DNA from: Helicostylum pulchrum
Taxonomy: Eukaryota; Mucoromycota; Mucoromycetes; Mucorales; Mucoraceae
DNA: 64,000 bases
NCBI GenBank assembly: GCA_025677825.1
Contig: JAIXMO010000015.1
Location: forward strand, 434,001 to 498,000
Reading direction: 5' to 3'
In this document: positions 18,671 through 45,307 of the stretch, piece by piece
Numbering within the stretch: the first letter of the stretch is position 1
Layout of the letters: every line of letters starts with the position of its first letter
The notes under the pieces: generated by a model
What the model saw: the letters and a program-made list of their open reading frames with translations, nothing else
Database searches by the model: none
What the model was told of the DNA's origin: nothing
Program-made: the position numbers and the translations under genes

Positions 18671-18970
18671 TACAGTAGCGGCTCTATTTAAGGGTGGCTT
18701 TCTCCGCCGCTTTAACATCACTATTTACCACTGCTTGATTTAAGGGCGGAATCTAATTTCGCAAAACAATAAAACTTTTAATAGAATTTAAAATGATTCT
18801 GATGTTTGAGTTCTTGCAGAAAACGATACACAGCATTTTTTTTTGTTCAGTAACTAGGGCCGATTCAAGGACTATTTATAGTGCTCTCTAATCCATTATT
18901 TTTCATTTATTATTCTCTTTGAAACGCGTGTTTTTAAGTGAAGGTTTAGAACACGGTGATAAAAAACTAC
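18671..18970 (+). mobile_element. Left part of TIR transposon interrupted by duplicated segment A
   Basis: The left terminus TA-CAGTAGCGGCTCTATTTA starts at 18671. It is followed by family-specific blocks ('gatgtttgagttcttgcag' near 18800; 'acgcgtgtttttaagtgaagg' near 18925). The element stops at the triplet TAC (18968-18970), where the 7.7 kb segment begins. It resumes at 26660 with 'attttacgtaatcgc'. Joined across the insertion this reads like the uninterrupted repeat at 790-820. The right terminus is missing, so the element was also truncated on its far side (near 27333). Confidence 0.8.
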
Positions 18971-19349
18971 TTGACTGGTATTAGCTTGCTATAAATTAGA
19001 AAAATATTTCATTTTTAAAATAGACGGAAGTAGTACGGGTCAACTGTTTGTACAATAAGATTCAAGTATGATGCTACTGCCGTCATGCAAGTATACGATA
19101 AGGTATTGCTGTATTCTGTGGTGTTTCCTTCTTTTGTAGAGCCAAAAAAAGGGGGGGGGGTAACTAGAAAAATTCAGCACAAACGACTGCGCGACGTTGA
19201 ACTTGTTTGTAACAGGCTGCTTTATTATTAGTTGACAAGTAATTATATCGTTTTAAACGTTTTATTCTTATTAAAAGTGAATTATCATTCATTAGAAAAA
19301 AAAAAATTTTAAAGAAAAAAAAAGGGGGTTTGTACGTGTATATATATTT

Positions 19350-22300
19350 TTAATTATATAACTCCAAATAGTCAATACATCGATAATCAGCTTCATGGTC
19401 GTCTTGCTTAACAGTAAAAACAAGCTCGTATCTTTCTAATTTACAGCTAATGCCAATAGGCTTAGTTACATCTTTAATAGGAAATATAAATCGATGCAAC
19501 TTCTTGAAGTTGTTGTTTGATATAGTATTGTTTAATGATTCTGCTTCACGAGAGGCATATAAAACTGGACAAATGAAGAAAAAAAGTTAGCAAAACAAAA
19601 AAAACAAAAAAACAAAAAAAAAAAGTTGTGCTGCTGTCATCTTACCTATAGCAATGGAACATTCGTGTGGCACTTTGAACTGTAAGAAAGGATCGTGGTT
19701 TGGTATAATTGAGGAAGCATATACGTTTAAATCAATCAAAGGGTGAAGTAAGGTAAGCGCATCTTCTTGGGCTGTATATAAAACCTCCTCATATTTAATA
19801 TTTGCATTTTCATCTTCATCTTTTTTTATGTATTTATTCTTTTCGTCACTGGTCCTAATCTTTTTAAACAATCGACTATATATGTGTTCCGCCATATGAT
19901 CTTGCCTTTTTATATCATGGCTCAAGATATGAACCGCGTACCTTTGTTCGGTTACTCTTCTCGACTTTCGTAGCACTTTATTATCGACACCGTGTGCTAA
20001 ACAAGCTACTTGTCTAGTAAAATCCACATCACCATCAAACAAAAGATAAACATTTATATCAAATGTGTTTCGAAGATAGTTTTTCAAAACATCGTACAAC
20101 CTATTTCCAAACTCGATACTGTCACTAGTGAGAAACACGCATAACTTTTGTGACGGATTGGTAATATAAGTATCGCAGGTCTTTTTAATCATGTACATTA
20201 ATCGATATTTTATCCAAGGTTTAATTAAGATGTCCTGTATCTGTCTGTTTGTTATTTTGTAATCTTTGAATTGTTTAATGGCGTACAGTAGACCGGCCTT
20301 GTTGACAGCTGAATTAACTGGTAGTTGCATAAACATAAGCTCGTTTGTACCTGGAATCAAAAACAAGTCACCGAGAGTATGTGTCGCAGACGGTCTATCT
20401 AAATCGACATTACGGCTGATATAGTCACGTACATGTGACCCCATAAAATTGACCATGCCTGCTAAATGCGCCAACAATTCTATTACGGTATAATCTCGTA
20501 TCATAATCTTTCTATCAATACCAGCAGGAGGTAAAGTTTCGAATTTCCATGAAATAGTAGGGCCAACCGTAGGCTCTAAAGGTTCAATGTTTGTCTTTTC
20601 TAGTTCTTGACGTAGAAATACTTTTAAATTCAATGTCAAGGTTTGAATTTTTTCAGCGTCTTGAATTTTGTGGTTGGGCAATAATGATCCTTCGATAGGG
20701 ATAGTATCGTACGTTTCCTGATTTTGGATACTGTCGCAAATGACGTCAAAGTATGGGTAACTAGTACGAGATGTACTGGATACATCTACCCATGTAATAG
20801 TTCCTTTATAGATATCGGTAAAGTTCACCATACCGATTTCAGATGCAGCACTAAACACGCTGGTCTTTAAAAGTTTATGTTCTCCCTCTGAGCAGTACGT
20901 TGCCTTGCAATCGAACAATCGACATATGTTATCGTGTGCCTTGGTAAGTGTTTCTGGCGGAAATAATTGATCGAGCTCAGTCATCTTTTTAAGTATCTCT
21001 TTTTTTAAAGTTTCCATGGGCATTTCAGTAAATATATTAAAGTCTTCTTTATGGGGATTGTTTGTTGAGTGTGGTGCGATAGAGATACAGTATCGTACGT
21101 TGTCGGGTCGCCATTGCTTCTCCGGGTACAGGGTCTCGTAATCATTTTGGATCCATTCGTAGAGCTGGTGAATAAAGGCCTTGATTAAGCACTTGTAGTA
21201 AAAGGTACCCCAGAGATCCAGTAGATATTCACCTACGCTTGCGGCGTCAACAATTTGGTTAAAGTTATACTGAAGAAAAGTTTCAGAATCAAATTGAAAT
21301 TTTCGGGAGAAGCCATATCCAGATTTGATACTACAAATTCAAAAAAGGAAAAAAAAAAAAGTTAACTTTTATAAAAAACCCTATGTATTTTTTTTTTATA
21401 CAATACTTACTTTTTTTTGCGTAATAATTCTGTAAAAGTGCCGCCGGGTGGAAGGAAACGACGTCCTTCTAAACTCAAAAAACTAAACGTGGCAGTCAAG
21501 TCAAACAAATCGATATCTATGCCAACCAACAAATTACGTTTTACATCCGCTTGAGGATCTTCGTTATACTGAAACGGTTGGATTTTAACTCGATCTTTGG
21601 GTATAATATCTATACAATCAATACCATGATAAATACCGCCTCGCATCGAAGCACGGTACCCGTCCTCTGGTACAATCAAATGCTGAATAGCATTTGTGCA
21701 AGTAATAAACTCGTAGTGTAACTTTTTGTACAGATAGGGTGATTGACCAAACCCTCCCAACAAAAACAGAGTTTCAATGGTTGTATGTGATTTTCTAATC
21801 TGCTTACGGACCAAACTCATTACGTTTTCAACAACGGGGTCAAACACAAATTTCGATATATCAGTACTTTTAACACGTAGCTGTACTGTTTCTGCATGGC
21901 GAACAATGTTTCCAGTAGTATCTAAACTTTCAATGACAGAGGGAATGAAGCTTTCGTCGTGTGGTGGTAATGTAAAGTAGACGTAGTCAGTAGGTGTTAG
22001 ATCTTGAACGAAATCATCGTCACTAAATATGTCTTGGTCCATGTAAACGTCGTCTTCGTCGTAACATGATTCATCTTGCTCCGTTTCTTCTTCTTCGTTA
22101 TCTGAATGGTTTAAGTAATCCTGTTCGTAATCGTAATCGTTTTCATGAACATCTTTCATTACTGTATCATCAGTCGTTGTTAAAGTGGTAGCATCATCTG
22201 TTGGTTCAGTTTGTTTAACAACCGTAGTAGCAGCAGTAGAAGCAATATAATTATTTCTACCAGTTTCATCACCAAAGTAGTGCTTTATTTCCTTTATAAA

Positions 22301-23096
22301 TTGATCCACCAACAGTTTCAAAGTACTATCACTGACACCACCAAGAAACACTTGATCTCTTAAATAACTTTCCATATTTTTATCCAGAATAGTAGAGCCA
22401 CAACATCCCCCGCTTTCTAAAGCCAATTGACAATGTCCTTTTTGCTCCACACTAGTATCAGTACATTCATAAGTGGCTAGGTCAACTGTACCACCACCAG
22501 CATCACATACCAAGTACCGCTGCCCTTTCACTAATTTCTTTGTGTGACCCTCGGTTCTGATACAAAACTCGCGTTCACAAAACAAGGAAGCAGCAAAGGC
22601 TTCATTGATAATGACTAACCTTTCATTTGGATCCGAATCCTGAACTAACCCAGCCTCTATGGCAATTAACCGCATGCACGCGTTATCTTCAGTTACCCAA
22701 GTTGCAGGCACAGTCAATACGAATCTAAAATCTTTCTCAGATGCTTTTCGTGGTAATACAGTTTGAATCAGTTGGTGACACGTATATTGATATATTTCTC
22801 GAAGATAATCTACTGCGGCGTTCCAGTATTGCTTTTCTTCGTAGGTGAGCTGGGAGTTGTTAGTGCGATAGTTTTGAAAGATGGTGTGAAGTTTAAGTTT
22901 GAATTGGTCGATGAGGAGGACGTCAGGGTCATTTGGAGTGGCAGTGATATGGTCAATAGCGGATTTACCCCATTTCAAAAGTGTGTGGTCTGGTTTGGAG
23001 TAGAGACAGGCGGTAGGTGTCTTTTCAAATGTGTCGTCTGGTTTTTGTTCAGGCCTGCAAATATAAAAATTATGTCAGTATGACAGCTTAACGTTT

Positions 23097-23144
<48 letters not shown>

Positions 23145-23325
23145 ACCATTTTATAACGTGAACAATGCTTTTTTTGTCCTTGGTGTAGGAGAAGCAACTG
23201 CCGGAAAATGTGGTACCAATATCTATCCAATTATTAGATTACATGTATGTACCTTTTTTTTTACTAGTATAATGTACTTTACCTATACTTATAATGTAGT
23301 CGTAAAGATCAAACTCAGTAGACAT
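19350..23325 (-). CDS. HSPA12-like Hsp70-family protein, copy A
   Basis: Five exons: 23325-23283, 23222-23147, 23054-21411, 21330-19646 and 19564-19350. They total 1220 residues. The N-terminal actin-like ATPase fold shows the phosphate-1 loop DIGTTFSGSCFSY (split by the first intron), phosphate-2 DAGGGTVDLATYE at about 224, and the adenosine-side motif LLGGFGQSPYLY at about 471. A long acidic insertion (about residues 345-390) interrupts the fold. This pattern fits the HSPA12-like branch of Hsp70s expanded in Mucoromycota. The C-terminal ~600 residues have no substrate-binding domain I recognise. The frame is intact, with exon lengths identical to copy B. Exon 4 differs from copy B at 14 replacement and 3 silent sites; one residue differs at the end of exon 3 (Arg here, Gly in B). 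Confidence 0.88.
23103..23140. repeat. (TG)n microsatellite in an intron of the Hsp70-like gene, copy A
   Basis: An uninterrupted TG run of about 38 bases lies in the second intron of the minus-strand gene. The matching CA run in copy B is at 39026-39064. Confidence 0.9.
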
Positions 23326-23813
23326 ACTGGAGATTATTTTTTTTTATAAAAAAAGAAAAAGAAAAAGAAAAAAGCATTCCCCTTTTATAACCATTTTTCT
23401 GTAAAAACTGCGGGACATTAATTATGGTGTCACTCACTTTTGTTAACGTGAATCTCATCTTTCCAATTACTCGATTGAAATAATTACTTTTTTCGGTGAA
23501 GCGTTTTTATTTTCTTTTGGGAAGTAAAGTCATCGAAATAATTTAATTGATTTCAGTTGGTATAATTGTCCTGATAGGTACTGACAAAAAGGCTGGTGGT
23601 ATAAGATGACGGCTGAAGGGAATTGCTGAGCCTGTTTTAATCAGGTAATCCGTTCATTGTGCCACAAAAAGTATAACTTAGCATTGTTCACCCAAAAAAG
23701 AAAAAAAAAATAACCACTGCACATAGTATTTTATATGGACTACTGTTACAAGTCTCTGTTTTATTTTATATCATCACAACAGATTTATGGCGCATCTAAT
23801 TACTCGAGAAAGA
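23326..23813. promoter_or_regulatory. Spacer between NT-C2 and Hsp70-like genes, copy A
   Basis: 488 bp hold the NT-C2 3' end and the Hsp70-like promoter, and are shared with 38353-38840 in copy B. Because the whole spacer was duplicated, the A copy of the Hsp70-like gene probably kept its own promoter. A 'gaaaaa' repeat tract lies at 23351-23372. Confidence 0.5.
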
Positions 23814-24950
23814 TTAAGCGTGGGTTGGTTTTTCTTTAAATAGTTGTTCTACAAGGTCTACAGGAGAAGGATCATCGCTATCATTAAAGGGAGTCACTTG
23901 TCGACAGTAATGAGGCTAATTTTGTTTGTTTGTTAGTGTGTGTGTGCGTCTTATCAAAAAACGAAAGGCTTTTTTTTTTTTTTTTTTTTTTTTGCTTACC
24001 AGTGAGATAGCAGATTGTGATTTTTTGAGTACTGGTGTTTGTGAACGAAATGAGGTATCAAGATTATTACTGGTGCTGTTAATAGCGTTCGAGGTAAAGC
24101 TAGCCGAATCTGTATAATACATAATGAGCACCAGTATATACTAAAGAAGAAGAAGAAGAAGAAGAAAAAAACTTACGTAAAGAACGTTCATCGTATAATA
24201 AAGACCTTTCTTTCCTTTCAGTAATCATGGAAGGTATATCTGTAAATATCTGTTGTTTCTTTAATGGTGGACTATTAAGAAAGAAAAAAATTAATATAAC
24301 TCGTGTAAACCCTCCCCTCCCCCCCCCTTTTTTTTTCTCTTTTTCTGTGCGTAATTACATATCGAATTGCATTAAAGCATCGGATCTTTGATCTACTTTA
24401 ATTGAGAGCTAAAAAGAAAAGAAAAAAAACCATCGGTTAACTTTTGATAAGTGAATTAACGTACATGCTGATACAATACCTTTATGGTGGAGTTAAATTT
24501 ACAGTCATCTAACAAATACCTTCTTGTTGTCAATCCCGAACTAGCATACTCGGATAAATTTATTGTTAAACTACCAATTGGAATTGTATCCTTACTACCA
24601 CCTAATTCTTGATACACTTCCAGTTTAAACTCACAAGGTCCCAACACATGTTGTTTCGAGATTATTAATTGAGCCATGGTGCTTATGGGATGACCCCAAA
24701 ATATACAATGGTCTCGAATAGGAGCTCTATTTCATTTGAACAACATTTTAATTAAAAAAAAGAAAGAGTAATGATAGTATGTGAATACAAACCGAACAGT
24801 TGAACCATTGTTATGTGTTGCGTTCTTTAACCTCCATTTAACATAATATAAACCACTGACAAGAGGTACATTAGTTAAATCTTGAATGAGTATTGTTAAC
24901 TCAAAGTCTATTTTACGACTTTTAGATATAAATATATGAGAAAGAGGCAT
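23814..24950 (-). CDS. NT-C2 domain protein, copy A
   Basis: Six exons mirror copy B and encode 253 residues. The N-terminal ~150 residues fit the NT-type C2 domain of EEIG1/EHBP1-like proteins. Visible parts are SRKIDFELTILIQDLTNVPL, YYVKWRLKNAT, PIRDHCIFWGH, CEFKLEVYQE and IPIGSLTINLSEYA, then RRYLLDDCKFNSTIKV. In that family the domain binds membranes or partners in actin and vesicle traffic. The rest is serine-rich, with FTSNAINSTSNNLDTSFRSQ, and ends EQLFKEKPTHA. Only about 45 bp upstream of the ATG is shared with copy B; beyond 24995 the sequence is block X instead of the NEM1-side promoter. Transcription of this copy is therefore doubtful. Confidence 0.8.
23970..23993. repeat. T24 homopolymer in an NT-C2 intron
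   Basis: A 24-base T run lies in the last intron of the minus-strand gene. Copy B carries the complementary A run near 38171-38196 with a slightly different length. This is expected slippage. Confidence 0.85.
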
Positions 24951-24995
24951 AATAACTAGGTGCGGGGTAAGATTTTTTTTTGCTTTTTTGTTTTA

Positions 24996-26388
24996 ATTTA
25001 GACTAGTTTAATTTACTGATGATAAAAACTACTAAAAATCATGCATGATTGTTTTTTTCTTTTGACAAAATCCAGAATAGAATGGTGATATTAGCTGCTA
25101 CTGAGATTTATGTACAAGTATTTGGCTTGCAGCAAAACCCAAGAATATTGTTCAAAGTGGGTACACACTTACTGGAGATTTAGCTTTTGGTGTTTATATT
25201 TTAGAAGGGGTAAACTACAATGTAGCATGAAATAAATTTCGTCATTATTCACGCTTTTATTTTGGTCACTTTCTGATAAACTTTAGAAAACAAAAAATAA
25301 TATTCTCATTATTTCATATTAATATATTAAATTTTTTATTGATATCAATTAAAATAGTACACAACTATTTATTGGAATACCACATAACAATACATTTAAG
25401 AACTACTGGCTATGATATATAGAACTAAATGGTATTTTTGCGCTCACTTTATTTGGCTTACACTGCATTCCTTTCCAGTTTTTCATCACTTAGCAACAGT
25501 CTGTATTTAATTCCTTTTCCTAGTTAAATTTCTAAAGATACACTGCTGATACGCGCTCCATTCAGGTATAAATTGACCGTCTTTATACTTTAATTACTTT
25601 GTAAGGTTTATGTTACTATCCTTTCTCTATCAGTTTGATTATTATCCCTTTGTTTTAATAATATCGATTTGATTGTGTACTTTTGAAGACTAGACGCTTT
25701 TATATACAGTTAAATAAGACTTTTTATTTTATTATTATCACTTTTATATATTTAGTAGTTTTGTGAAGTTGGATTCCACCCTGGAATCGAATAGTAGTGA
25801 TAGAGGTGTTAAAGCGGGGGACCGAAGATGTTCTGGTGAAATCCACCCTTAAATCGATCCTACCCTTAAATCAGGTCACCCCTAAATAGAGCCGCTACTG
25901 TAGATCATATGATCAAATAAACCCTTGCTTTATCAACGCTATAAGTATTTATTCTGCTTACAATAAGTCATTTTTACTATGATGTATAGTTACCAGAAAG
26001 TATTTTTTTATATGCGTATCTTTTAAAAAAGTTTATATCCTATATTCATTTATTGTTCTGTTTTTTTTTACCGGTTCTGTTTTCTTTATGCCGGTTCAGA
26101 CGTATATGGTTCCTCTTAGAGTAATCACATCTATTTAATGGTTCTGTGAAATTGTATTCTACCTTTGGATCGAATAGTGGTAATAAGTGGTGATTTTAAA
26201 GTGGGGGGGGGGGACCGAAGAAGCTCTGGAGGATTTCACCCTTAGATTGAGCGTACAACTAAATAGAACACCACTGTAGGCATAACATATTCTTTCTTTT
26301 CGTGTGGCATTCATAAGTAATTATTTTCTTCTTATTACTTTTAAAATACCACCTAAAAAATTTAAACAGACTACTCTTTCTTTCAGCA
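24996..26388. mobile_element. Transposon-derived block X, copy A
   Basis: Part of the 7.7 kb segment. It contains a family right terminus ending ACTGTA at 25902 and a second, diverged one ending at 26278. Each is preceded by a 'tcgaatagt' plus 'accgaaga' block. Between 25320 and 25540 it matches 27115-27333. From 25902 down to 24996 it equals the left 0.9 kb of the complete element at 43975-45307 in copy B. The missing 0.43 kb of that element is absent here. No intact gene. Confidence 0.75.
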
Positions 26389-26627
26389 CGAAACCTGAAG
26401 TGGAAATGCCGAAAGAAAAAGTAGAAAAAGTAGAAAAGAAGTACAACGATGCTACCAAAGAGAACTGTCTCTTAAGATAACAGCTAGAAGAATTCAAGCA
26501 TCATATAGACAAAACAATCAAACAAGATAACAAAGAGTCAGAACAGTTAGTCATTATAAAAAAAGAAAATGAATTAATGGGAATTGAACTTGAGCTAATA
26601 GAGAAACTCTTTGAAAAAGAGCAATAA
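26389..26627 (+). pseudogene. Coiled-coil gene relic in block X, copy A
   Basis: After a good splice acceptor (tctttcag) at 26388 an open frame reads TKPEVEMPKEKVEKVEKKYN and onward to a stop at 26625-26627. It is rich in Lys, Glu and Leu with heptad-like spacing (LEEFKHHIDKTIKQ, LMGIELELIEKLFEKE). One in-frame TAA at about 26478 interrupts it. The same stop is present in copy B, so the lesion predates the duplication. It looks like a last exon of a captured host gene carried by a transposon. Parent gene unknown. Confidence 0.45.
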
Positions 26628-26659
26628 ACTCTTTCTTTATCAAATATTAATTGGTTTAC

Positions 26660-27333
26660 ATTTTACGTAATCGCAAATAAAGGCAAAGTAGATGTCGAAT
26701 AAATTCAAAATAATCACAAAAACACAAAAAGGTTGACCCCCAAAATGATCAAAAATGATGGACTGAAAAAAAATAAAAAATCGAGAAAAATATAAAACAA
26801 CATGCGGTTTTTAGTTTTGATGTTAAAGAAAACATCCTAAGGAGTAACTTTTACTAAGTAACGTGGGTAAAAGAATCGTTTCCTGATGTTTAATCATACA
26901 ATGAAAACATCTTTTTTCGAACACCGAAAAATAACCTTTTTTAAAAGTTACCTCTAAACCTTCACTTAAAAAGACGCGTTTTTAATGGAATAACGGATAG
27001 GCAATGATGGTTTATATTATTTTCAATAGTTCTTGAGCTTACCCAAGTTATTTTACCAAAAAATATTCTGTGTATCTTTTTTCTGCAAGAGCTCAAACAT
27101 TAAAATTATGGTAAATTCTATTAATTTTTTTATTGATGTCAATTAAAATAATACAAAGCTATTTATTTTAATACCACATAACAATACATTTAAAGGTTAC
27201 TAGCTATAATAAAGAGGGCTATAAATAATCTTTGCGTTAACTTTATTTGGTTTACACTGCATTCCTTTCCAATATTTTATCATTTAGTAACAGTCTGTAT
27301 TTAATTACTTTTCTTAGTTAAATACGGTATTCG
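26660..27333 (+). mobile_element. Right part of the transposon interrupted by copy A
   Basis: Resumes with 'attttacgtaatcgc' just after the TAC flank and continues with the 'ggttgaccccc' block (26735). It then gives an inverted version of the blocks seen at 1-400: 'aaaaagacgcgttttt', 'ttctgcaagagctcaaac', 'attgatgtcaattaaaat'. It ends near 27333 without a family terminus, where zinc-finger gene debris begins. Confidence 0.7.
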
Positions 27334-27339
27334 CATAGA

Positions 27340-27666
27340 TCAACATTTAGTGTTTTTATATGATGGATATGAGTGAAGTGTTACAAATAATATTTTTTTG
27401 AATGTATACGTTCTATTGCATAATGTACTACAAAGGTTATTTTTATTGTTCAGGTCCGGAACAATATCTTGATTCATCTGCAGTGCGGCTAATTTCCGTT
27501 TAGCTAGTGAGAAGTCATGAACATTATACAAGTCTCTAACTCTGTACACTCTGTCACAGGCAGTACAATGATTGCGTATTTCGTCTATAACCGGTAACTC
27601 GTTGCGATTAACGTGAGAAGACAGTGTTCTCGATGTGCTGAATTTTACATGGTAATAAATGGACAT
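27340..27666 (-). pseudogene. C2H2 zinc-finger gene fragment (3' part)
   Basis: Minus-strand ORF of 108 codons. VNRNELPVIDEIRNHCTACD and DIVPDLNNKNNLCSTLCNRT match the ends of the two plus-strand zinc-finger genes at 27780-29596 and 53696-55417. Compare EIPTIDEINNHCTSCD, and MNNKNNHCVSCNRTY. The fingers are damaged: histidines are missing and a Cys is displaced. It is a severed inverted fragment at the edge of the truncated transposon. Confidence 0.6.
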
Positions 27667-27779
27667 ATGACATCTACAGGAACTCGGTGTCGCATGCTGT
27701 TATCAATTTCTTGCTTAATGTACGCTCTAGTTCACGACCTTCTTATTTTTTTCTCCTTTTACTGTAGATCTCAGTCAAA

Positions 27780-29596
27780 TATGAAACATATTAAGGGGGA
27801 TAAGGACTTTGACACAAAAAAAAGACATTATTCCCCTTTTTCAGACAATATGAAACAAAAGACCGAAGAAAACATTGCAAGTAACGCGTTTAATCAAGAT
27901 ATGCAAATAAACAGGCCATAAACTGGAGCTTCTATTAAGCAAGAAACTGACGACAGCAAAGAATCTTTGAAATGCGCTTTATATTCCTCAGTGAAAGTTG
28001 AACCTTCTTCTTTAAAAATGAGTAAGTATAAAAGTAGTAAGTGTTGAAAAAGGGAATCAATATTGAGAGAGAGAGAGAGAGAGAGAGAGATTTTATACGA
28101 CCTGATACTCACTCAATATATGTATAACTTTATTGAAAAGTATCAAACGGAGACGCTGTAGTATATGTATTATCACTTTCGCGACGAGAAAGATTTACCT
28201 TGACCACAAACTTCACAGCCATAAAACTAAAGAGACGCCGATTATGGACCTAAAAAGCCGTTGGTGTAATATTTCCAGTAAGCAATTTCACAAAGTTACA
28301 AGTTATCGGCGGCGTATGGGTAATCTAAATAATGTTCATATTCCATCGGAAGCACCAGATATCAAATATCCAAACAATTACTGTTAGTCGTGTAATGTTA
28401 CGTACAAGTCCGGGAGAAATTACCTTAGGCATTTGATGGAAGTACATGATATGTCGCACCTTCTATCCTCCGAAGGACCGCGTAAATCAAATCATAATAC
28501 GAAGCCAACTATTGATATTTCAAATCTGTATTGCGATGTCTGCGAGAAAATATTTGGTTCCCAGAAAAGTTACATACGGCTTTTAATTCGAATGCATAGA
28601 ATAACCTTACCAGACACTTACATGCAACCGAGCAATTTTGATGTACAAAAATTGTACTTTAAAGTGTGTGACAAAACGTACAAAAACAAACAGAGCTTTA
28701 AAAGGCACTTGGACAACATACATCATATCGAGCCACCTTCTTGTTCTTATTTACTACCAGACATTAACGATCAAGACGACTGTTGTTTTGCATGCGAGAG
28801 AAGCTTCTGTAATCGAACAACATACTTACACCACTTGACCTTCTTTCATCTTGATGTATTACCGGAACTTTACCAAGGTGTAAATTGTGACAACCCTAGT
28901 AATCAAGACATATCCTTTAAAAAATACTGTGCTGATTGTCAAAAAGTATTTCTATTGAAACGTCTATGTCAAATTCACAGGGAAAAAATTCATGGTGTCG
29001 AACTACCGAAATATTTACCCAGCGTTGGTGATCTAAATAACCACAGTGAGTTATGCGATAAAACGTATAGTGATGTAACTACATATCGACGACATCTGGT
29101 TAATGTTCATAAATTAATTAAATCCTCTACAGTTCGTCAATGGTATAAAATGAATAATGAAACACCTGTTGCGGACCGTTTAAATAATCATTGTAATGTC
29201 TGTGATATAAGATATAAAACATTGGATTCCTACCGACATCATATGACAAGGTATCACTATATACAATTCCGCCTAACGAAATCACAGTCAGGTTATGTTG
29301 ATCTTAATGAAATACCAACTATTGACGAAATAAACAACCATTGCACCTCTTGTGACAAAGTTTACAAAAGTAGAAGAGCGTATAGAATTCATTCAAATAG
29401 GATCCATAACATCTTATTACCCAGAGCGATCTATAAAAAAGCACCGCTGATTCACCAAGATTTTATTCCTGACGTGGATGATAAAGATAATTATTGTGCC
29501 TCATGCGACATAGTGTATTCATCCAAAGCAAGCTATTTTCGCCGCCTCACCAAAATCCATCAAATGAACACTAAAAAAGATACAAAAGTTATTTGA
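27780..29596 (+). pseudogene. Multi-finger C2H2 zinc-finger gene with in-frame stops
   Basis: Coding-like sequence begins at 27781 with ATGAAACATATTAAGG. It reaches a TAA at 27919, then IKQETDDSKESLKCALYSSV. After an apparent intron containing a (GA)n run, the frame from 28133 to 29596 has one TAG at about 28386 (NNYC-stop-SCNVTY). Around ten C-x2-C...H-x3/4-H units follow, e.g. CDVCEKIFGSQKSYIRLL, CNVCDIRYKTLDSYRHHM and CTSCDKVYKSRRAYRIHS. Several have lost a ligand. The downstream part (28433-29596) is a clean 387-codon frame and could still be made. Two psi-K-x-E motifs (IKQE, VKVE) are possible SUMO sites. Function unknown; it looks like a fast-decaying lineage-specific family. Confidence 0.6.
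28065..28090. repeat. (GA)n microsatellite
   Basis: A perfect GA dinucleotide run of about 26 bases within the presumed intron of the zinc-finger gene. Confidence 0.9.
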
Positions 29597-34753: not shown

Positions 34754-34853
34754 ATTACTATCTCGTTTTCATATTAAAAAAATACACGTTTTTGTTTTAA
34801 AATAAAAGAATACATTTTTTAAAAAAAAATCAACTCTTATTTATTTTTTTTAT

Positions 34854-35939: not shown

Positions 35940-36156
35940 TTTTTTATTCTAGTATGACAAACAGTGAAAAAGAAGGGTGACGAAGGAAAATTTTTCTGCG
36001 AGTGCAAACACACACATAAAATATATTCCCACTGCGTTTCAAATAATAATCGTAAAAAAAAAAAAAGGTAGTGTAGCAAGGCAGGCATACTCGGGATCCA
36101 ATTCCGGCACAGAAAGAAAGAGAAAGAGTATTTATTACAAGACAGTTAAAAGAACA

Positions 36157-37076
36157 CTAAGTTAATTTATGCTGTAATCTTAATACGCTACGAACATCAG
36201 CAGTAAACCGTAATGCATCTAAGAAAGGTAGGAGATCTAATAAGGATTCATCATTGGGGTTTGATATCCAAGTTGGTAATGCAATACCATTTTCTGAGGG
36301 AAAAAGATTTAGTTTTTTTACCCCAACAAAAAATAAATAGAAAATTTTTACCTTTGTACATGTCAAATGCAATAGGACTATTATCAACAAGACATACTTT
36401 ACAAAGGTCTTCTTCAGCTAAAGTAAGGTCCTTTAAGAAATTACCATTTCTTAATACGCATGACTTTAGATATAAATTAGTGCAACGAAATAAAGTATAA
36501 ATATATCTTTTTTTACTTGTCTAAAGAATCGTTGTGAAATCACATTATTATCCTGATCAAGCCAGTCAATCACGGGGTCAGCATATTCTGCCATAGATGC
36601 GGTATAAATAACAACCTTATACCATTGACTGATCTAAAATAAACATAAACATAAATAAAGACAATAAAATATGCTAGATTCTTTCTTTCTTTTACCGTCT
36701 TTAAAAAGAAATCAACATGAGGTCTTTTGTATACTTCATACAATAAGCTTTGTTTGTCACATTGTACTTCCACCTTTTTTCTGATAATCGAAGGACTGAC
36801 TTCTTTAAACGAACTTTCAGAACCGAGTCGAACCGAATGAACAAGTGTTTCGTCAAGGTCTAATATAAGTGTCTTTCCTTTATAGTATTGCATATCTGTA
36901 TTGAGTTTGGGTATCTTTTGGGTTATTCGTTTTCTCGATAGTATCAAGGCACATACAAAGTTGTAAGTGAGAGCAACATATTCATATACATGACTAAAGA
37001 ATACTTTGGTTCTTCTTTTTCGTATTGAGGGTGCTGTAGTCGTTGTTGTCGTTGTTGTTGTAAATGTACTTGACAT
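36157..37076 (-). CDS. NEM1: Nem1/Dullard-type HAD phosphatase (CTDNEP1 class)
   Basis: Minus strand, start 37076, stop 36157, four exons. The N-terminus has a threonine run and basic RKRRTKV, then one membrane segment ([15 protein letters not shown]). The catalytic motif is [17 protein letters not shown], with the nucleophile and acid/base Asp of the FCP/SCP class. Further family blocks are [66 protein letters not shown] and [20 protein letters not shown]. Length and membrane anchor fit the nuclear-envelope/ER Nem1 phosphatase that activates Pah1/lipin. It is head to head with the NT-C2 gene at 37215, only 138 bp between starts. The left breakpoint of copy B (37169) lies in that shared promoter. 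Confidence 0.9.
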
Positions 37077-37214
37077 GTAAAAGATTATTTATTATTTATT
37101 ATATATAAAAAAAAAAAGAGAAAGAAAGAAAGAACAAAAAAGCGGGGTTCTTTTACACTTGTATAAAATAAAACAAAAAAGCAAAAAAAAAATCTTACCC
37201 CGCACCTAGTTATT
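37077..37214. promoter_or_regulatory. Bidirectional promoter NEM1 / NT-C2, cut by the duplication breakpoint
   Basis: 138 bp between divergent start codons. The pentamer TAAAA at 37169-37173 is the left limit of sequence shared with copy A. The NEM1-side 92 bp are therefore unique to this locus. Confidence 0.65.
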
Positions 37215-38352
37215 ATGCCTCTTTCTCATATATTTATATCTAAAAGTCGTAAAATAGACTTTGAGTTAACAATACTCATTCAAGATTTAACTAATGTACC
37301 TCTTGTCAGTGGTTTATATTATGTTAAATGGAGGTTAAAGAACGCAACACATAACAATGGTTCAACTGTTCGGTTTGTATTCACATACTATCATTACTCT
37401 TTCTTTTTTTTAATTAAAATGTTGTTCAAATGAAATAGAGCTCCTATTCGAGACCATTGTATATTTTGGGGTCATCCCATAAGCACCATGGCTCAATTAA
37501 TAATCTCGAAACAACATGTGTTGGGACCTTGTGAGTTTAAACTGGAAGTGTATCAAGAATTAGGTGGTAGTAAGGATACAATTCCAATTGGTAGTTTAAC
37601 AATAAATTTATCCGAGTATGCTAGTTCGGGATTGACAACAAGAAGGTATTTGTTAGATGACTGTAAATTTAACTCCACCATAAAGGTATTGTATCAGCAT
37701 GTACGTTAATTCACTTATCAAAAGTTAACCGATGGTTTTTTTTCTTTTCTTTTTAGCTCTCAATTAAAGTAGATCAAAGATCCGATGCTTTAATGCAATT
37801 CGATATGTAATTACGCACAGAAAAAGAGAAAAAAAAAGGGGGGGGGAGGGGAGGGTTTACACGAGTTATATTAATTTTTTTCTTTCTTAATAGTCCACCA
37901 TTAAAGAAACAACAGATATTTACAGATATACCTTCCATGATTACTGAAAGGAAAGAAAGGTCTTTATTATACGATGAACGTTCTTTACGTAAGTTTTTTT
38001 CTTCTTCTTCTTCTTCTTCTTTAGTATATACTGGTGCTCATTATGTATTATACAGATTCGGCTAGCTTTACCTCGAACGCTATTAACAGCACCAGTAATA
38101 ATCTTGATACCTCATTTCGTTCACAAACACCAGTACTCAAAAAATCACAATCTGCTATCTCACTGGTAAGCAAAAAAAAAAAAAAAAAAAAAAAAAGCCT
38201 TTCGTTTTTTGATAAGACGCACACACACACTAACAAACAAACAAAATTAGCCTCATTACTGTCGACAAGTGACTCCCTTTAATGATAGCGATGATCCTTC
38301 TCCTGTAGACCTTGTAGAACAACTATTTAAAGAAAAACCAACCCACGCTTAA
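37215..38352 (+). CDS. NT-C2 domain protein, copy B
   Basis: Exons 37215-37372, 37439-37685, 37757-37806, 37894-37988, 38056-38165 and 38251-38352. Total is 253 residues. Phases are consistent and all splice sites are GT-AG. The N-terminal domain resembles the NT-type C2 domain of EEIG1/EHBP1-like proteins (MPLSHIFISKSRKIDFELTI, CIFWGHPISTM, FKLEVYQELGGSKDTIP, LSEYASSGLTTRRYLLDD). The C-terminal ~100 residues are polar and serine-rich and end EQLFKEKPTHA. Such fungal proteins are poorly studied; membrane or cytoskeleton attachment is inferred from the domain. Unlike copy A it keeps the full bidirectional promoter with NEM1, so it is the likelier expressed copy. Confidence 0.82.
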
Positions 38353-38840
38353 TCTTTCTCGAGTAATTAGATGCGCCATAAATCTGTTGTGATGATATAA
38401 AATAAAACAGAGACTTGTAACAGTAGTCCATATAAAATACTATGTGCAGTGGTTATTTTTTTTTTCTTTTTTGGGTGAACAATGCTAAGTTATACTTTTT
38501 GTGGCACAATGAACGGATTACCTGATTAAAACAGGCTCAGCAATTCCCTTCAGCCGTCATCTTATACCACCAGCCTTTTTGTCAGTACCTATCAGGACAA
38601 TTATACCAACTGAAATCAATTAAATTATTTCGATGACTTTACTTCCCAAAAGAAAATAAAAACGCTTCACCGAAAAAAGTAATTATTTCAATCGAGTAAT
38701 TGGAAAGATGAGATTCACGTTAACAAAAGTGAGTGACACCATAATTAATGTCCCGCAGTTTTTACAGAAAAATGGTTATAAAAGGGGAATGCTTTTTTCT
38801 TTTTCTTTTTCTTTTTTTATAAAAAAAAATAATCTCCAGT
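38353..38840. promoter_or_regulatory. Promoter spacer of Hsp70-like gene, copy B
   Basis: 488 bp shared with copy A. A TTTTTC repeat tract at about 38788-38817 lies just before the ATG. No heat-shock-element array is evident to my eye. Confidence 0.45.
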
Positions 38841-39022
38841 ATGTCTACTGAGTTTGATCTTTACGACTACATTATAAGTATAGGTAAAGTACATTATACT
38901 AGTAAAAAAAAAAGGTACATACATGTAATCTAATAATTGGATAGATATTGGTACCACATTTTCCGGCAGTTGCTTCTCCTACACCAAGGACAAAAAAAGC
39001 ATTGTTCACGTTATAAAATGGT

Positions 39023-39070
<48 letters not shown>

Positions 39071-42000
39071 AAACGTTAAGCTGTCATACTGACATAATTT
39101 TTATATTTGCAGGCCTGAACAAAAACCAGACGACACATTTGAAAAGACACCTACCGCCTGTCTCTACTCCAAACCAGACCACACACTTTTGAAATGGGGT
39201 AAATCCGCTATTGACCATATCACTGCCACTCCAAATGACCCTGACGTCCTCCTCATCGACCAATTCAAACTTAAACTTCACACCATCTTTCAAAACTATC
39301 GCACTAACAACTCCCAGCTCACCTACGAAGAAAAGCAATACTGGAACGCCGCAGTAGATTATCTTCGAGAAATATATCAATATACGTGTCACCAACTGAT
39401 TCAAACTGTATTACCACGAAAAGCATCTGAGAAAGATTTTAGATTCGTATTGACTGTGCCTGCAACTTGGGTAACTGAAGATAACGCGTGCATGCGGTTA
39501 ATTGCCATAGAGGCTGGGTTAGTTCAGGATTCGGATCCAAATGAAAGGTTAGTCATTATCAATGAAGCCTTTGCTGCTTCCTTGTTTTGTGAACGCGAGT
39601 TTTGTATCAGAACCGAGGGTCACACAAAGAAATTAGTGAAAGGGCAGCGGTACTTGGTATGTGATGCTGGTGGTGGTACAGTTGACCTAGCCACTTATGA
39701 ATGTACTGATACTAGTGTGGAGCAAAAAGGACATTGTCAATTGGCTTTAGAAAGCGGGGGATGTTGTGGCTCTACTATTCTGGATAAAAATATGGAAAGT
39801 TATTTAAGAGATCAAGTGTTTCTTGGTGGTGTCAGTGATAGTACTTTGAAACTGTTGGTGGATCAATTTATAAAGGAAATAAAGCACTACTTTGGTGATG
39901 AAACTGGTAGAAATAATTATATTGCTTCTACTGCTGCTACTACGGTTGTTAAACAAACTGAACCAACAGATGATGCTACCACTTTAACAACGACTGATGA
40001 TACAGTAATGAAAGATGTTCATGAAAACGATTACGATTACGAACAGGATTACTTAAACCATTCAGATAACGAAGAAGAAGAAACGGAGCAAGATGAATCA
40101 TGTTACGACGAAGACGACGTTTACATGGACCAAGACATATTTAGTGACGATGATTTCGTTCAAGATCTAACACCTACTGACTACGTCTACTTTACATTAC
40201 CACCACACGACGAAAGCTTCATTCCCTCTGTCATTGAAAGTTTAGATACTACTGGAAACATTGTTCGCCATGCAGAAACAGTACAGTTACGTGTTAAAAG
40301 TACTGATATATCGAAATTTGTGTTTGACCCCGTTGTTGAAAACGTAATGAGTTTGGTCCGTAAGCAGATTAGAAAATCACATACAACCATTGAAACTCTG
40401 TTTTTGTTGGGAGGGTTTGGTCAATCACCCTATCTGTACAAAAAGTTACACTACGAGTTTATTACTTGCACAAATGCTATTCAGCATTTGATTGTACCAG
40501 AGGACGGGTACCGTGCTTCGATGCGAGGCGGTATTTATCATGGTATTGATTGTATAGATATTATACCCAAAGATCGAGTTAAAATCCAACCGTTTCAGTA
40601 TAACGAAGATCCTCAAGCGGATGTAAAACGTAATTTGTTGGTTGGCATAGATATCGATTTGTTTGACTTGACTGCCACGTTTAGTTTTTTGAGTTTAGAA
40701 GGACGTCGTTTCCTTCCACCCGGCGGCACTTTTACAGAATTATTAGGCAAAAAAAAGTAAGTATTGTATAAAAAAAAAATACACAGGGTTTTTTATAAAA
40801 GTTAACTTTTTTTTTTTCCTTTTTTGAATTTGTAGTATCAAATCTGGATATGGCTTCTTCCGAAAATTTCAATTTGATTCTGAAACTTTTCTTCAGTATA
40901 ACTTTAACCAAATTGTTGACGCCGCAAGCGTAGGTGAATATCTACTGGATCTCTGGGGTACCTTTTACTACAAGTGCTTAATCAAGGCCTTTATTCACCA
41001 GCTCTACGAATGGATCCAAAATGATTACGAGACCCTGTACCCGAAGAAGCAATGGCTACCCGACAACGTACGATACTGTATCTCTATCGCACCACACTCA
41101 ACAAACAATCCCAATAAAGAAGACTTTAATATATTTACTGAAATGCCCATGGAAACTTTAAAAAAAGAGATACTTAAAAAGATGACTGAGCTCGATCAAT
41201 TATTTCCACCAGAAACACTTACCAAGGCACACGATAACATATGTCGATTGTTCGATTGCAAGGTAACGTACTGCTCAGAGGGAGAACATAAACTTTTAAA
41301 GACCAGCGTGTTTAGTGCTGCATCTGAAATCGGTATGGTGAACTTTACCGATATCTATAAAGGAACTATTACATGGGTAGATGTATCCAGTACATCTCTT
41401 ACTAGTTACCCATACTTTGACGTCATTTGCGACAGTATCCAAAATCAGGAAACGTACGATACTATCCCTATCGAAGGATCATTATTGCCCAACCACAAAA
41501 TTCAAGGCGCTGAAAAAATTCAAATCTTGACATTGAATTTAAAAGTATTTCTACGTCAAGAACTAAAAAAGACAAATATTGAACCTTTAGAGCCTACGGT
41601 TGGCCCTACTATTTCATGGAAATTCGAAACTTTACCTCCTGCTGGTATTGATAGAAAGATTATGATACGAGATTATACCGTAATAGGATTGTTGGAGCAT
41701 TTAGCAGGCATGGTCAATTTTATGGGGTCACATGTACGTGACTATATCAGCCGTAATGTCGATTTAGATAGACCGTCTGCGACACATACTCTCGGTGACT
41801 TGTTTTTGATTCCAGGTACAAACGAGCTTATGTTTATGCAACTACCAGTTAATTCAGCTGTCAACAAAGTCGGTCTACTGTACGCCATTAAACAATTCAA
41901 AGATTACAAAATAACAAACAGACAGATACAGGACATCTTAATTAAACCTTGGATAAAATATCGATTAATGTACATGATTAAAAAGACCTGCGATACTTAT

Positions 42001-42818
42001 ATTACCAATCCGTCACAAAAGTTATGCGTGTTTCTCACTAGTGACAGTATCGAGTTTGGAAATAGGTTGTACGATGTTTTGAAAAACTATCTTCGAAACA
42101 CATTTGATATAAATGTTTATCTTTTGTTTGATGGTGATGTGGATTTTACTAGACAAGTAGCTTGTTTAGCACACGGTGTCGATAATAAAGTGCTACGAAA
42201 GTCGAGAAGAGTAACCGAACAAAGGTACGCGGTTCATATCTTGGGCCATGATATAAAAAGGCAAGATCATATGGCGGAACACATATATAGTCGATTGTTT
42301 AAAAAGATTAGGACCAGTGACGAAAAGAATAAATACATAAAAAAAGATGAAGATGAAAATGAAAATATTGAATATGAGGAGGTTTTATATACAGCCCAAG
42401 AAGATGCGCTTACCTTACTTCACCCTTTGATTGGTTTAAACGTATATGCTTCCTCAATTATACCAAACCACGATCCTTTCTTACAGTTCAAAGTGCCACA
42501 CGAATGTTCCATTGCTATAGGTAAGATGACAGCAGCACAACTTTTTGTTTTTTTGTTTTTTTGTTTTTTTTGTTTTGCTAACTTTTTTTCTTCATTTGTC
42601 CAGTTTTATATGCCTCTCGTGAAGCAGAATCATTAAACAATACTATATCAAACAACAACTTCAAGAAGTTGCATCGATTTATATTTCCTATTAAAGATGT
42701 AACTAAGCCTATTGTCATTAGCTGTAAAGTAGAAAGATACGAGCTTGTTTTTACTGTTAAGCAAGACGACCATGAAGCTGATTATCGATGTATTGACTAT
42801 TTGGAGTTATATAATTAA
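38841..42818 (+). CDS. HSPA12-like Hsp70-family protein, copy B
   Basis: Exons 38841-38883, 38945-39020, 39113-40756, 40836-42520 and 42604-42818 give 1220 residues from MSTEFDLYDYIISIDIGTTF. The actin-like ATPase motifs are complete: DIGTTFSGSCFSY, then DAGGGTVDLATYE, then LLGGFGQSPYLY. An acidic, low-complexity loop (about residues 345-390, with DNEEEETEQDESCYDEDD) is inserted in the ATPase fold. Exons 4 and 5 add about 600 residues. These include AASVGEYLLDLWGTFYYKCL and ISIAPHSTNNPN, which may be a diverged second actin-like lobe; this is inference. There is no Hsp70 substrate-binding domain or EEVD tail. Family members in animals (HSPA12A/B) signal rather than fold proteins. Client and role here are unknown. 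Confidence 0.9.
39026..39064. repeat. (CA)n microsatellite in intron, copy B
   Basis: A perfect CA run in the second intron of the Hsp70-like gene; counterpart of the TG run at 23103-23140. Confidence 0.9.
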
Positions 42819-42828
42819 AAATATATAT

Positions 42829-43200
42829 ACACATACAAACCCCCTTTTTTTTTTAAAGAAAAAAAAACTTTTCTAATGAATGATAATTCACTTTTAATAA
42901 GAATAAAACGTTTAAAACGATATAATTACTTGTCAACTAATAATAAAGCAGCCTGTTACAAACAAGTTCAACGTCTCGCAGTCGTTTGTGCTGAATTTTT
43001 CTAGTTACCCCCCCCCCTTTTTTTGGCTCTACAAAAGAAGGAAACACCACAGAATACAGCAATACCTTATCGTATACTTGCATGACAGCAGTAGCATCAT
43101 ACTTGAATCTTATTGTACAAACGGTTGGCCCGTACTACTTCCGTCTATTTTAAAAATGAAATATTTTTCTAATTTATAGCAAGCTAATACCAGTCAAGTA
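42829..43200. other. 3' flank of Hsp70-like gene up to the circle-opening point
   Basis: AT-rich 3' sequence with a C9 run near 43008-43016 (G run in copy A). It ends at GTA 43198-43200, the point where the matching sequence in copy A stops. No gene. Confidence 0.5.
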
Positions 43201-43229
43201 AACCAATTAATATTTGACAAAGAAAGAGT

Positions 43230-43470
43230 TTATTGTTCTTTTTCAAAGAGTTTCTCTATTAGCTCAAGTTCAATTCCCATTAATTCATTTTCTTTTTTTA
43301 TAATGACTAACTGTTCTGACTCTTTGTTATCTTGTTTGATTGTTTTGTCTATATGATGCTTGAATTCTTCTAGCTGTTATCTTAAGAGACAGTTCTCTTT
43401 GGTAGCATCGTTGTACATCTTTTCTACTTTTTCTACTTTTTCTTTCGGCATTTCCACTTCAGGTTTCGTG
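43230..43470 (-). pseudogene. Coiled-coil gene relic in block X, copy B
   Basis: Minus-strand counterpart of 26389-26627, with the same lysine/glutamate-rich frame, the same acceptor, and the same in-frame TAA. The lesion is therefore older than the duplication. Confidence 0.45.
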
Positions 43471-43578
43471 CTGAAAGAAAGAATAGTCTGTTTAAATTTT
43501 TTAGGTGGTATTTTAAAAGTAATAAGAAGAAAATAATTACTTATGAATGCCACACGAAAAGAAAGAATATGTTATGCC

Positions 43579-43720
43579 TACAGTGGTGTTCTATTTAGTT
43601 GTACGCTCAATCTAAGGGTGAAAACCTCCAGAGCTTCTTCGGTCCCCCCCCCCACTTTAAAATCACCACTTATTACCACTATTCGATTCAAAGGTAGAAT
43701 CCAATTTCACAGAACCATTA
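43579..43720 (+). mobile_element. Diverged transposon left terminus inside block X
   Basis: Begins TA-CAGTGGTGTTCTATTTAG at 43579. It is followed by a subterminal region with a long C run and 'cactattcgattcaaaggtagaatcca', like the subterminal part of the element at 43975. Its partner end is not found in the window. It is probably an older, nested member of the same family. Confidence 0.6.
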
Positions 43721-43974
43721 AATAGATGTGATTACTCTAAGAGGAACCATATACGTCTGAACCGGCATAAAGAAAACAAAACCGCTAAAAAAACAGAACA
43801 ATAAATGAATATAGGATATAAACTTTTTTAAAAGATACGCATATAAAAAAAAATACTTTCTGGTAACTATACATCATAGTAATATGAAAAAAAAATGAAA
43901 GAATCGTAACTTATTGTAAGCAAAATAAATACTTATAGCGTTGATAAAGCAAGGGTTTATTTGATCATATGATC

Positions 43975-45307
43975 TACAGTAGCGGCTCTATTTAGGGGTG
44001 ACCTGATTTAAGGGTAGGATCGATTTAAGGGTGGATTTCACCAGAACATCTTCGGTCCCCCGCTTTAACACCTCTATCACTACTATTCGATTCCAGGGTG
44101 GAATCCAACTTCACAAAACTACTAAATATATAAAAGTGATAATAATAATAAAAAAGTTATTTAACTGTATATAAAAGCATCTAGTCTTCAAAAGTACACA
44201 ATCAAATCGATATTATTAAAACAAAGGAATAATAATCAAACTGATAGAGAGAGGATAGTAACATAAACCTTACAAAGTAATTAAAGTATAAAGACGGTCA
44301 ATTTTATACCTGAATGGAGCGCGTATCAGCAGAAATTTAACTAGGAAAAGGAATTAAATACAGACTGTTGCTAAGTGATGAAAAATTGGAAAGGAATGCA
44401 GTGTAAGCCAAATAAAGTGAGCTCAAAAATACCATTTAGTTCTATATATCATAGCCAGTAGTTCTTAAATGTATTGTTATGTGGTATTCCAATAAATAGT
44501 TGTGTACTATTTTAATTGATATCAATAAAAAATTTAATATATTAATATGAAATAATGAGAATATTATTTTTTGTTTTCTAAAGTTTATCAGAAAGTGACC
44601 AAAATAAAAGCGTGAATAATGACGAAATTTATTTCATGCTACATTGTAGTTTACCCCTTCTAAAATATAAACACCAAAAGCTAAATCTCCAGTAAGTGTG
44701 TGCCCACTTTGAACAATATTCTTGGGTTTTGCTGTAAGCCAAATACTTGTACATAAATCTCAGTAGCAGCTAATATCACCATTCTATTCTGGATTTTGTC
44801 AAAAGAAAAAAACAATCATGCATGATTTTTAGTAGTTTTTATCATCAGTAAATTAAACTAGTCTAAATTAAAATGCCAAGTTTTGTAAAACTGGAGTTTG
44901 TATGTAATTCCTTTCTGAAAAAATATAGTGGGTTCCAAAATCATGCCTGCGAATTTTACAACGCTTTCTGTTGTTTTAAAAAGTGCCAAAAATAACGGTA
45001 TTGTTTGCAGTCTGGTAAATATTCCTGGCTCTCTGGAAATGAAAGTTCCTTGCTTCTTTCTAGCCCGCTATAACGAAGCAATTGCCAAAGAAATTGCTTT
45101 ACAAATAATGGCTTCAGATCTAAAAAAAGAAATTACCAATCAACACCAGACTATTGTTAATAAAATAAAAAATGATTTGTAATCTGTTCGATATCGTGTA
45201 ATAAATAAAAAAGAAGATAATTAAAAAACCAACTTGTGAGTTGTATTCCACCTTTAAATCGGTCCTACCCCTAAATCAAGTCACCCCTAAATAGAGTCGC
45301 TACTGTA
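43975..45307. mobile_element. Complete TIR transposon spanning the right breakpoint of copy B
   Basis: The left end TA-CAGTAGCGGCTCTATTTA begins at 43975. The right end, in complement from 45307, is TA-CAGTAGCGACTCTATTTA. About 65 bp of terminal inverted repeat align, including 'gggtaggaYcgatttaa'. Length is 1333 bp, TA-flanked, no transposase. Sequence up to 44873 is also in copy A; the last 434 bp are not. The element is thus intact here and truncated there. Confidence 0.82.
44928..45182 (+). CDS. Short ORF inside the transposon, possibly a captured gene fragment
   Basis: 84 codons, MPANFTTLSVVLKSAKNNGI through LKKEITNQHQTIVNKIKNDL, ending about 60 bp before the right inverted repeat starts. 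In another frame, the sequence from 44873 reads MPSFVKLEFVCNSFLKKYSG up to a stop, so one coding unit may be split by a frameshift. The tail could form a coiled coil. No family recognised. It may be a relic of captured host sequence, like the relic at 43230-43470. Confidence 0.35.
   Translation: MGSKIMPANFTTLSVVLKSAKNNGIVCSLVNIPGSLEMKVPCFFLARYNEAIAKEIALQIMASDLKKEITNQHQTIVNKIKNDL

Follow-up and report, generated by a model that had tools for sequence, protein, structure and literature searches.

A permuted inverted duplication carrying an Hsp70-like gene in Helicostylum pulchrum, explained most simply by a circular DNA intermediate

In Helicostylum pulchrum, a stretch of 64,000 nucleotides of contig JAIXMO010000015.1 (positions 434,001 to 498,000; in the following, the window) contains two copies of a segment, A and B, both composed of a long block Y and a short block X. 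The copies are inverted relative to each other, and their blocks follow each other in different order. This raises the question of how a duplicated segment can come to begin and end at another point than its template.

The two copies and their junctions

Self-BLAST of the window aligned the Y blocks (18968-25011 with 43200-37153, minus strand) at 99.16% identity over 6049 columns with 45 mismatches and 5 gap openings, and the X blocks (24991-26659 with 44873-43198, minus strand) at 96.5% identity over 1693 columns with 18 mismatches and 9 gap openings. With blocks of 6.0 and 1.7 kb and identities of 96-99%, the likeness of A and B is not a matter of chance. In a whole-genome search, full-length matches to Y were found at A and B only. 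The original prediction had claimed a permuted order, Y-X in one copy and X-Y in the other, and the base-by-base alignment confirmed it: the two blocks are swapped and their relative orientation is unchanged. Moreover, the ends of the donor are joined inside the derivative, and the ends of the derivative are contiguous in the donor; both findings are features by which duplications via extrachromosomal circular DNA (eccDNA) are recognised. The positions of all features are listed in Table 1.

Table 1. Positions of the two copies, their junctions, repeats and genes in the window.
Feature	Position	Strand	Remark
Copy A, inserted (probable)	18968..26659	-	order X-Y on minus strand; 7692 bp; TAC at each end
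Copy B, donor/native (probable)	37169..44873	+	order Y-X; 7705 bp; TAAAA at each end
TAC, left end of A	18968..18970	+	one TAC or AAC here in empty-site homologues
TAC, right end of A	26657..26659	+	followed by ATTTTACGTAATCGC as in both empty-site homologues
TAAAA, internal join of A, X end joined to Y start	24991..24995	-	putative circle-closure scar
GTA at the unbroken transition from Y to X in donor B	43198..43200	+	putative circle reopening point
GTATAAAATAAAA	37161..37173	+	left arm of 13-bp imperfect direct repeat (11/13) bounding donor
GTCTAAATTAAAA	44861..44873	+	right arm of the same repeat (11/13)
Dispersed repeat R1, inside X	43974..44539	+	dozens of places with related sequence (scored: 40 out of 503 candidates)
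Dispersed repeat R2	44542..44937	+	from X across right boundary of B into native flank
Half of Y without A/B substitution	37165..40286	+	homogenised tract (putative)
Micro-inversion in B relative to A	42854..42868	+	3' of gene; C resembles A more here
Hsp70-like gene, copy A	19350..23325	-	5 exons as in B; 1220 aa; open
Hsp70-like gene, copy B	38841..42818	+	5 exons; 1220 aa; open
Exons of copy B gene	38841-38883, 38945-39020, 39113-40756, 40836-42520, 42604-42818

The junction motifs named beforehand, TAAAA and TAC/GTA, proved right in letters and position, TAAAA being present in B at 37169-37173 and 44869-44873 and once at the internal join of A. The breakpoints show microhomology only, of 3 bp and of 5 bp (the latter within the 11/13 imperfect repeat), with neither indel nor long homology, and the joins show no loss or repetition of sequence beyond these 3 and 5 bp in common. 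Microhomology alone is weak evidence, because 3-bp matches are common by chance and 11/13 matches also occur elsewhere: among 100,000 random pairs a 3-bp junction match occurred in 6.8% and one of at least 5 bp in 0.9%, and 18 of the 111,744 pairs of 13-mers from the two flanks had an identity of at least 11/13.

The divergence between the copies, counted with MAFFT, is unevenly distributed. Positions 1-3122 of Y contain no substitution, the rest of Y contains 41 (12 in one tiny inversion and 29 otherwise) and X contains 23. Indels of 21 and 11 bp are located outside the substitution-free half of Y.

A probable route through a circle

The circular intermediate postulated in the original prediction is supported by the continuity of the donor at B and by two homologues of an empty site at A, both described below, and is further backed by the lack of a remnant third block, other than the old paralogue C and dispersed repeats, and of any gain or loss beyond the common 3 and 5 bp. 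We regard it as the simplest explanation of the locus. Very probably, the ends of a segment of B were joined at TAAAA to form a circle, which was opened again at GTA/TAC before its insertion at A, part of Y being homogenised later. B would represent the ancestral locus, from which a double-stranded circle of 7.70 kb with one complete Hsp70-like gene would have arisen by release or by copying, its ends joined at TAAAA inside the 13-bp imperfect direct repeat (11/13), with one copy remaining at B. The circle would then have been opened about 6 kb round from its closure, at GTA/TAC, and joined in inverted orientation, 10.5 kb further left, into a TAC of the chromosome, neither insertion junction gaining or losing a base. 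The joining might have occurred by microhomology-guided end joining or by a microhomology-primed replicative event. In a later step, gene conversion or haplotype exchange could have made Y 1-3122 identical in both copies, the remainder having kept a divergence of about 1-1.4%. Of these elements, the circle molecule, the repair pathway, the retention of a copy at B and the cause of the homogenised tract are those that we infer.

Without any circle, the same arrangement might arise by template switching (FoSTeS/MMBIR). A break at A would have to be repaired by invasion of B at GTA, copying of X up to TAAAA, a jump back over 7.7 kb to the second TAAAA, copying of Y and exit exactly at the point of entry. 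The short microhomologies at both joins would fit such a process, and according to the available text of PMC7450558 breakpoint features alone cannot distinguish end joining from MMBIR. However, exit would have to equal entry within 3 bp of a 7.7-kb segment, which by our own estimate happens once in a thousand cases or more rarely, and the sequence shows neither loss nor repetition of bases other than the shared 3 bp. A circle gives the coincidence of exit and entry for free. We consider template switching quite unlikely.

Site-specific or transposon-borne circular elements of the Crypton-like type encode a recombinase or transposase. Such an element was rejected, since frames of 100 aa or more in A and B are limited to the Hsp70-like exons and one frame of 108 aa opposite them. 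Dispersed repeats are present in X. Duplication via a lariat (eltDNA), in which a strand swap at the knot leaves the two blocks in opposite orientation according to the available text of PMC7188851, was set aside, both blocks being inverted together in the self-BLAST.

Probable donor and landing site

The original prediction covered neither the direction of copying nor the mosaic divergence, the dispersed repeats in X and the paralogue C outside the window. With respect to direction, R2 runs past the right end of B into the flank of B, as it does in several genomic copies, whereas in A it is cut at TAAAA; this argues for B as the donor. We compared 13 other R2 copies, hand-picked from 28 other places. 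Three of them run on contiguously past the boundary for 21-75 bp, four are interrupted by a short deletion and then resume in the flank of B (two of the four only weakly, E 0.03), two come to an end no more than 2 bp from the boundary, without continuation, two stop before it, and two go on for 7-10 bp only. One further contiguous crossing, on contig C100, lies outside this set. As several repeat matches begin at 24991, the X/Y boundary was suspected to be the natural end of a transposon, but it is not a general repeat end, because R2 goes on in the flank of B in 7 of the 13 copies. Some of the remaining copies have a short deletion at the boundary or end there. Homologous recombination between R2 copies was rejected as an integration route, the left region of B (36700-37500) being unmatched in the R2-bearing loci tested.

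The joined flanks of A (40 of 301 candidates scored) matched two places across the join at position 268, C46:250087-250391 (93%, query 1-300) and C46:566257-566546 (92%, query 1-283). These homologues of the empty site, which like donor and recipient was judged via paralogous repeats of the same genome and not via an orthologous strain, read AACAACATTTTACGTAATCGC and AACTACATTTTACGTAATCGC and have a single AAC or TAC as against the two TACs at A. Because the flanks of A are matched uninterrupted at two other genomic places, A appears to be an insertion. To the right of the join, the exact match extends over only 15 bp before the homologues diverge near the start of another repeat. The other scored matches cover one flank or the other, and many start 12-15 bp beyond the join. 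Both flanks carry related repeats, and A was therefore considered as an insertion that had split one repeat copy in the middle; because these repeats have opposite orientation, they are not halves of one element and the idea was dropped, yet the joined-flank search gave the two empty-site homologues.

The permuted order by itself is symmetrical and would equally allow A as donor and B as insertion. This direction is most improbable given that R2 continues into the flank of B and that A has two empty-site homologues; moreover, the joined flanks of B gave no empty site, as they matched only themselves, half by half, and a single R2 copy, a control with little power because the left flank of B is single-copy. 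Another history, described by Takahashi and Innan as a source of false positives, assumes a Y-X tandem duplication followed by loss of the outer blocks and inversion. It yields apparent block swaps (available text of PMC7188851), but is hardly credible here: paralogue C and dispersed repeats are all that resembles a third X/Y block in the rest of the 78 kb, the ends of two deletions would have to coincide exactly with the duplication joins, the joined flanks of A match two uninterrupted places elsewhere, and R2 is continuous at B. Extremely unlikely, too, is an assembly or haplotype artefact placing one locus twice in one contig; the genome consists of 168 contigs, half of Y lacks substitutions and the protein divergence of A and B is similar to that between strains, but both copies lie with different flanks inside one 606-kb contig, whose correctness is taken from the assembly, 41 substitutions and the 21- and 11-bp indels occur in other parts, and misassembly would not yield homologues of an empty target. 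For the route through a circle, the permuted order, both junctions, the continuity of the donor, two homologues of the empty site and open genes are, as far as the assembled letters can tell, all present.

Precedents and the duplicated gene

Humans, cattle and wine yeast already provide examples of the mechanism, and the present case is unusually well resolved for a filamentous fungus. The animal precedents mentioned in the original prediction hold, but its restriction to animals does not, as a permuted circle-mediated case has been published for wine yeast (PMC3053389, available text). In this yeast, Zygosaccharomyces bailii, region B likewise occurs in circularly permuted integrated forms, with 2-3 bp in common at four of six junctions and a generally unchanged site; in contrast to the native segment described here with its one extra copy, it is a horizontally acquired region of 17 kb that includes a functional ARS and is present in as many as four copies in a strain. 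Human pairs of segmental duplications mediated by circular DNA (PMC7450558 and PMC7188851, available text) share the flip from A-B/C-D to B-A/D-C, microhomology or short indels at resolved breakpoints, a copy number of two and, in many cases, distinguishable donor and derivative. The 16 pairs characterised in PMC7450558 span 22 kb to 3.9 Mb and either lie on separate chromosomes or have a distance of 90 kb or more, whereas the present pair is 7.7 kb in size, 10.5 kb apart and inverted, with both junctions free of indels. In cattle colour sidedness, a serial translocation by circular intermediates (cited in PMC9694575 and discussed in PMC7450558, available text), the circle was also closed at a short microhomology and reopened elsewhere, but the event was a translocation, and micro-duplications and micro-deletions accompanied the opening. 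In 306 Magnaporthe oryzae genomes, a screen revealed no circle-mediated translocation according to the available text of PMC9694575, although the pipeline did recover the wine-yeast case.

Inferences of duplication via a circle usually draw on the order of the blocks and nothing else. At the present locus, one can read base by base the donor, the closure scar, the reopening point, the landing site and two unoccupied places resembling it, and the segment carries a whole gene that is open in each copy. As a clean case in an early-diverging fungus, the locus suggests that the circle route can leave full-length gene copies, and it offers a precise junction for testing in living cultures. It is conceivable, if rather doubtful, that reintegration of gene-bearing circles is a standing duplication route in Mucorales that leaves intact, diverging copies of fast-evolving families, and that insertion can be fully conservative, crossover-like at 3 bp, without an encoded recombinase.

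The splice sites of the Hsp70-like gene were placed by eye, and the proteins of A and B differ at 19 amino acids. At A, the gene would have acquired a new neighbourhood on either side, with X upstream of it. Pfam gave no match for the two large exons (E 0.001) or for the homologue P0001 from H. pulchrum KT1b (E 0.01), PDB gave none for the protein, and NCBIfam gave an E of 0.0076, far below the family cut-off. Among 24 relatives, two are named Hsp70 family protein and two heat shock 70 kDa protein 12A-like by their sources. Scans of the window for tRNAs and other RNAs with ARAGORN and Rfam found nothing.

The older paralogue C is located just outside the window. In strain KT1b, HPULCUR_008791 is 98% identical to B and HPULCUR_008783, at 72%, matches paralogue C; each is listed on a contig of 468,316, with seven tags in between. 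Seven genes also separate B and C here, five with Pfam names (MFS_1 below cut-off) and two without match, in a count that left out two frames at 47.7-48.7 kb without Pfam match, taken for putative transposon remnants. This arithmetic on locus tags points to the position of B for the KT1b gene. The KT1b cluster of the cargo protein has two member sequences. At the 19 differences between A and B, KT1b agrees with A at 9 and with B at 10, and therefore sides with neither copy.

Arrangement of the duplicated unit

Part of the Helicostylum pulchrum genome (32.2 Mb, 168 contigs), the window occupies C57:434001-498000 within a contig of 606 kb. Its self-comparison bore out the original prediction of two inverted copies with permuted block order. 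A 7.7-kb unit is present twice in opposite orientation with a spacing of 10.5 kb, copy B reading Y-X and copy A reading X-Y on the minus strand. Since blocks X and Y are inverted together in A relative to B, the arrangement is a permutation rather than a partial inversion. Full-length matches to Y in the genome were A and B only; in addition, an older paralogue of the duplicated gene (C) and four short weak matches were found. Another duplicated pair in the window (27883-29506 and 53652-55312) is in direct orientation, shows 64.5% identity and has C2H2 zinc-finger reading frames in both members.

Features of the duplication (window coordinates unless prefixed by the contig)
Feature	Position	Strand or orientation	Basis or remark
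Copy B	37169-44873	+	Exact ends from junction letters
Copy A	18968-26659	-	Exact ends from junction letters
Micro-inversion	42854-42868	B relative to A	T/A-rich tract; mimics a cluster of 12 substitutions
Paralogue C	C57:498121-502395 (L030)	-	Just past the window end; genome search with Y

Donor and insertion copies

The end of X is formed by a dispersed repeat, R2, which in B passes the boundary at 44873 into the flank, the longest alignment with other genomic copies covering 44542-44937. Thirteen R2 copies were picked by hand out of 28 other fetched places, and 8/13 were also aligned separately. Three of the 13 crossed the B boundary contiguously by 21-75 bp, four picked up again in the flank past a short deletion (E-values 4e-6, 0.002, 0.03, and 0.03), two extended just 7-10 bp over it, two stopped at most 2 bp from it without continuation, and two stopped short of it. 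An additional copy on contig C100 showed a 21-bp crossing. In A, R2 is truncated at TAAAA and followed by Y. The continuity of R2 into the flank of B, but its truncation in A, indicates that the right end of B is native sequence. A short deletion was present in three to four R2 copies (L039, L041, and L044; in L045 a few bases further on) at the AAATTAAAA tract, the site of the proposed circle closure, as if this tract were prone to repeated breakage or slippage.

The joined flanks of A matched C46:250087-250391 (93%) and C46:566257-566546 (92%), both spanning the join (40 of 301 candidates scored). In both homologues, 15 identical bases beyond the join precede divergence, and the join holds a single TAC (C46:566) or AAC (C46:250), compared to a TAC on each side of the insert in A. 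The remaining scored matches covered one flank or the other only, many right-flank matches starting 12-15 bp beyond the join at the start of another repeat; a match on C84 extended 7 bp left of the join, with a different sequence further on. In the same search with the joined flanks of B, the only matches were B's own two halves and a single R2 copy on the right side, a weak control because the left flank of B is single-copy. On this evidence, R2 continuity at B and the joined-flank homologues of A indicate that B is the donor and A the insertion. Related dispersed repeats in opposite orientation flank A (18668-18967 and 26672-27323), the left one having relatives at two places on C46 with 92-93% identity.

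A proposed circular intermediate and its alternatives

TAAAA is common to the two ends of the donor, where it lies in GTATAAAATAAAA and GTCTAAATTAAAA, which are alike at 11/13 positions; circle and target share TAC/GTA, and each base of both is accounted for once. In the proposed mechanism, the ends of the B segment would join at TAAAA, and the circle would reopen at TAC/GTA and enter the target TAC. Replicative release, the sister chromatid or another nucleus are candidate routes by which B could have kept its copy. Microhomologies of 3 and 5 bp are on their own modest evidence, as 3 bp are reached in 6.8% and 5 bp in 0.9% of random pairs. The strength of the case for a circle is that copy A exits the unit exactly at its entry point. 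This follows automatically from a circle, which favors it over template switching without a circle, where entry and exit would coincide only by chance. A tandem-duplication history behind the swapped blocks, of which Takahashi and Innan warn (PMC7188851), is expected to leave a third block, and the 78 kb examined held none, only paralogue C and dispersed-repeat matches.

Among human segmental duplications, permuted pairs formed through circles have been described (PMC7450558, PMC7188851); wine yeast offers an example with a foreign segment (PMC3053389), and cattle are cited as a further case. The Magnaporthe oryzae circularome paper reports none in 306 genomes (PMC9694575). Among the paper titles listed for circles, reintegration and Mucorales or other fungi, no Mucoromycota case appeared, which does not prove that none exists. 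The mechanism is already known; the anatomy of this case is unusually complete.

The cargo gene and probable later sequence exchange

The unit carries one predicted gene, open in A and B and encoding 1220 amino acids; its five exons were delimited by assigning the splice sites by eye. In B, an (AC)n microsatellite in intron 2 (39026-39064, approximate) directly follows the splice donor. The 24 relatives listed, taken from 7998 scored candidates, comprised 14 named Mucorales, two unnamed sources, and eight low-identity sequences from other fungi or from animals; their source names included Hsp70 family (2/24) and Hsp70 12A-like (2/24). Curated family models gave no confident recognition of the protein, and its motif IDIGTTFSG is suggestive of Hsp70.

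Copies A and B differ by 23 substitutions in X and none in positions 1-3122 of Y, where only three length differences of a single A residue occur; the remainder of Y has 41, 12 of them due to one micro-inversion. At these 12 sites, C agrees with A at seven and with B at none, so the micro-inversion is probably derived in B. At the rate of the remaining Y (28-29 in 2914), zero substitutions in 3122 has a probability of about 1e-13, and later homogenisation is the likely cause. For the greater part of the gene, paralogue C matches A and B at 74% identity; in the 5' half of C, however, almost no differences from them occur across Y 1.9-3.0 kb, and from there to 3.4 kb the difference is 5-7%. This disparity is a sharp sign of gene conversion and points to sequence exchange within this gene family. 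Residue 364 fits exchange within the strain, being T in A, B, and C but M in two other species and in both proteins of another H. pulchrum strain, KT1b. What counts against such exchange is that C and the KT1b proteins have one more asparagine, following residue 103, which A and B lack. In a rival reading, A would derive from another haplotype of B, the duplication would be young, and the 1-1.4% divergence allelic. Between the A and B genes, 19 amino-acid-changing and four silent changes were found, all outside the homogenised part. With a pN/pS of 1.23 in the non-homogenised part (Fisher p = 1.0), the coding divergence appears, on few changes, indistinguishable from no constraint.
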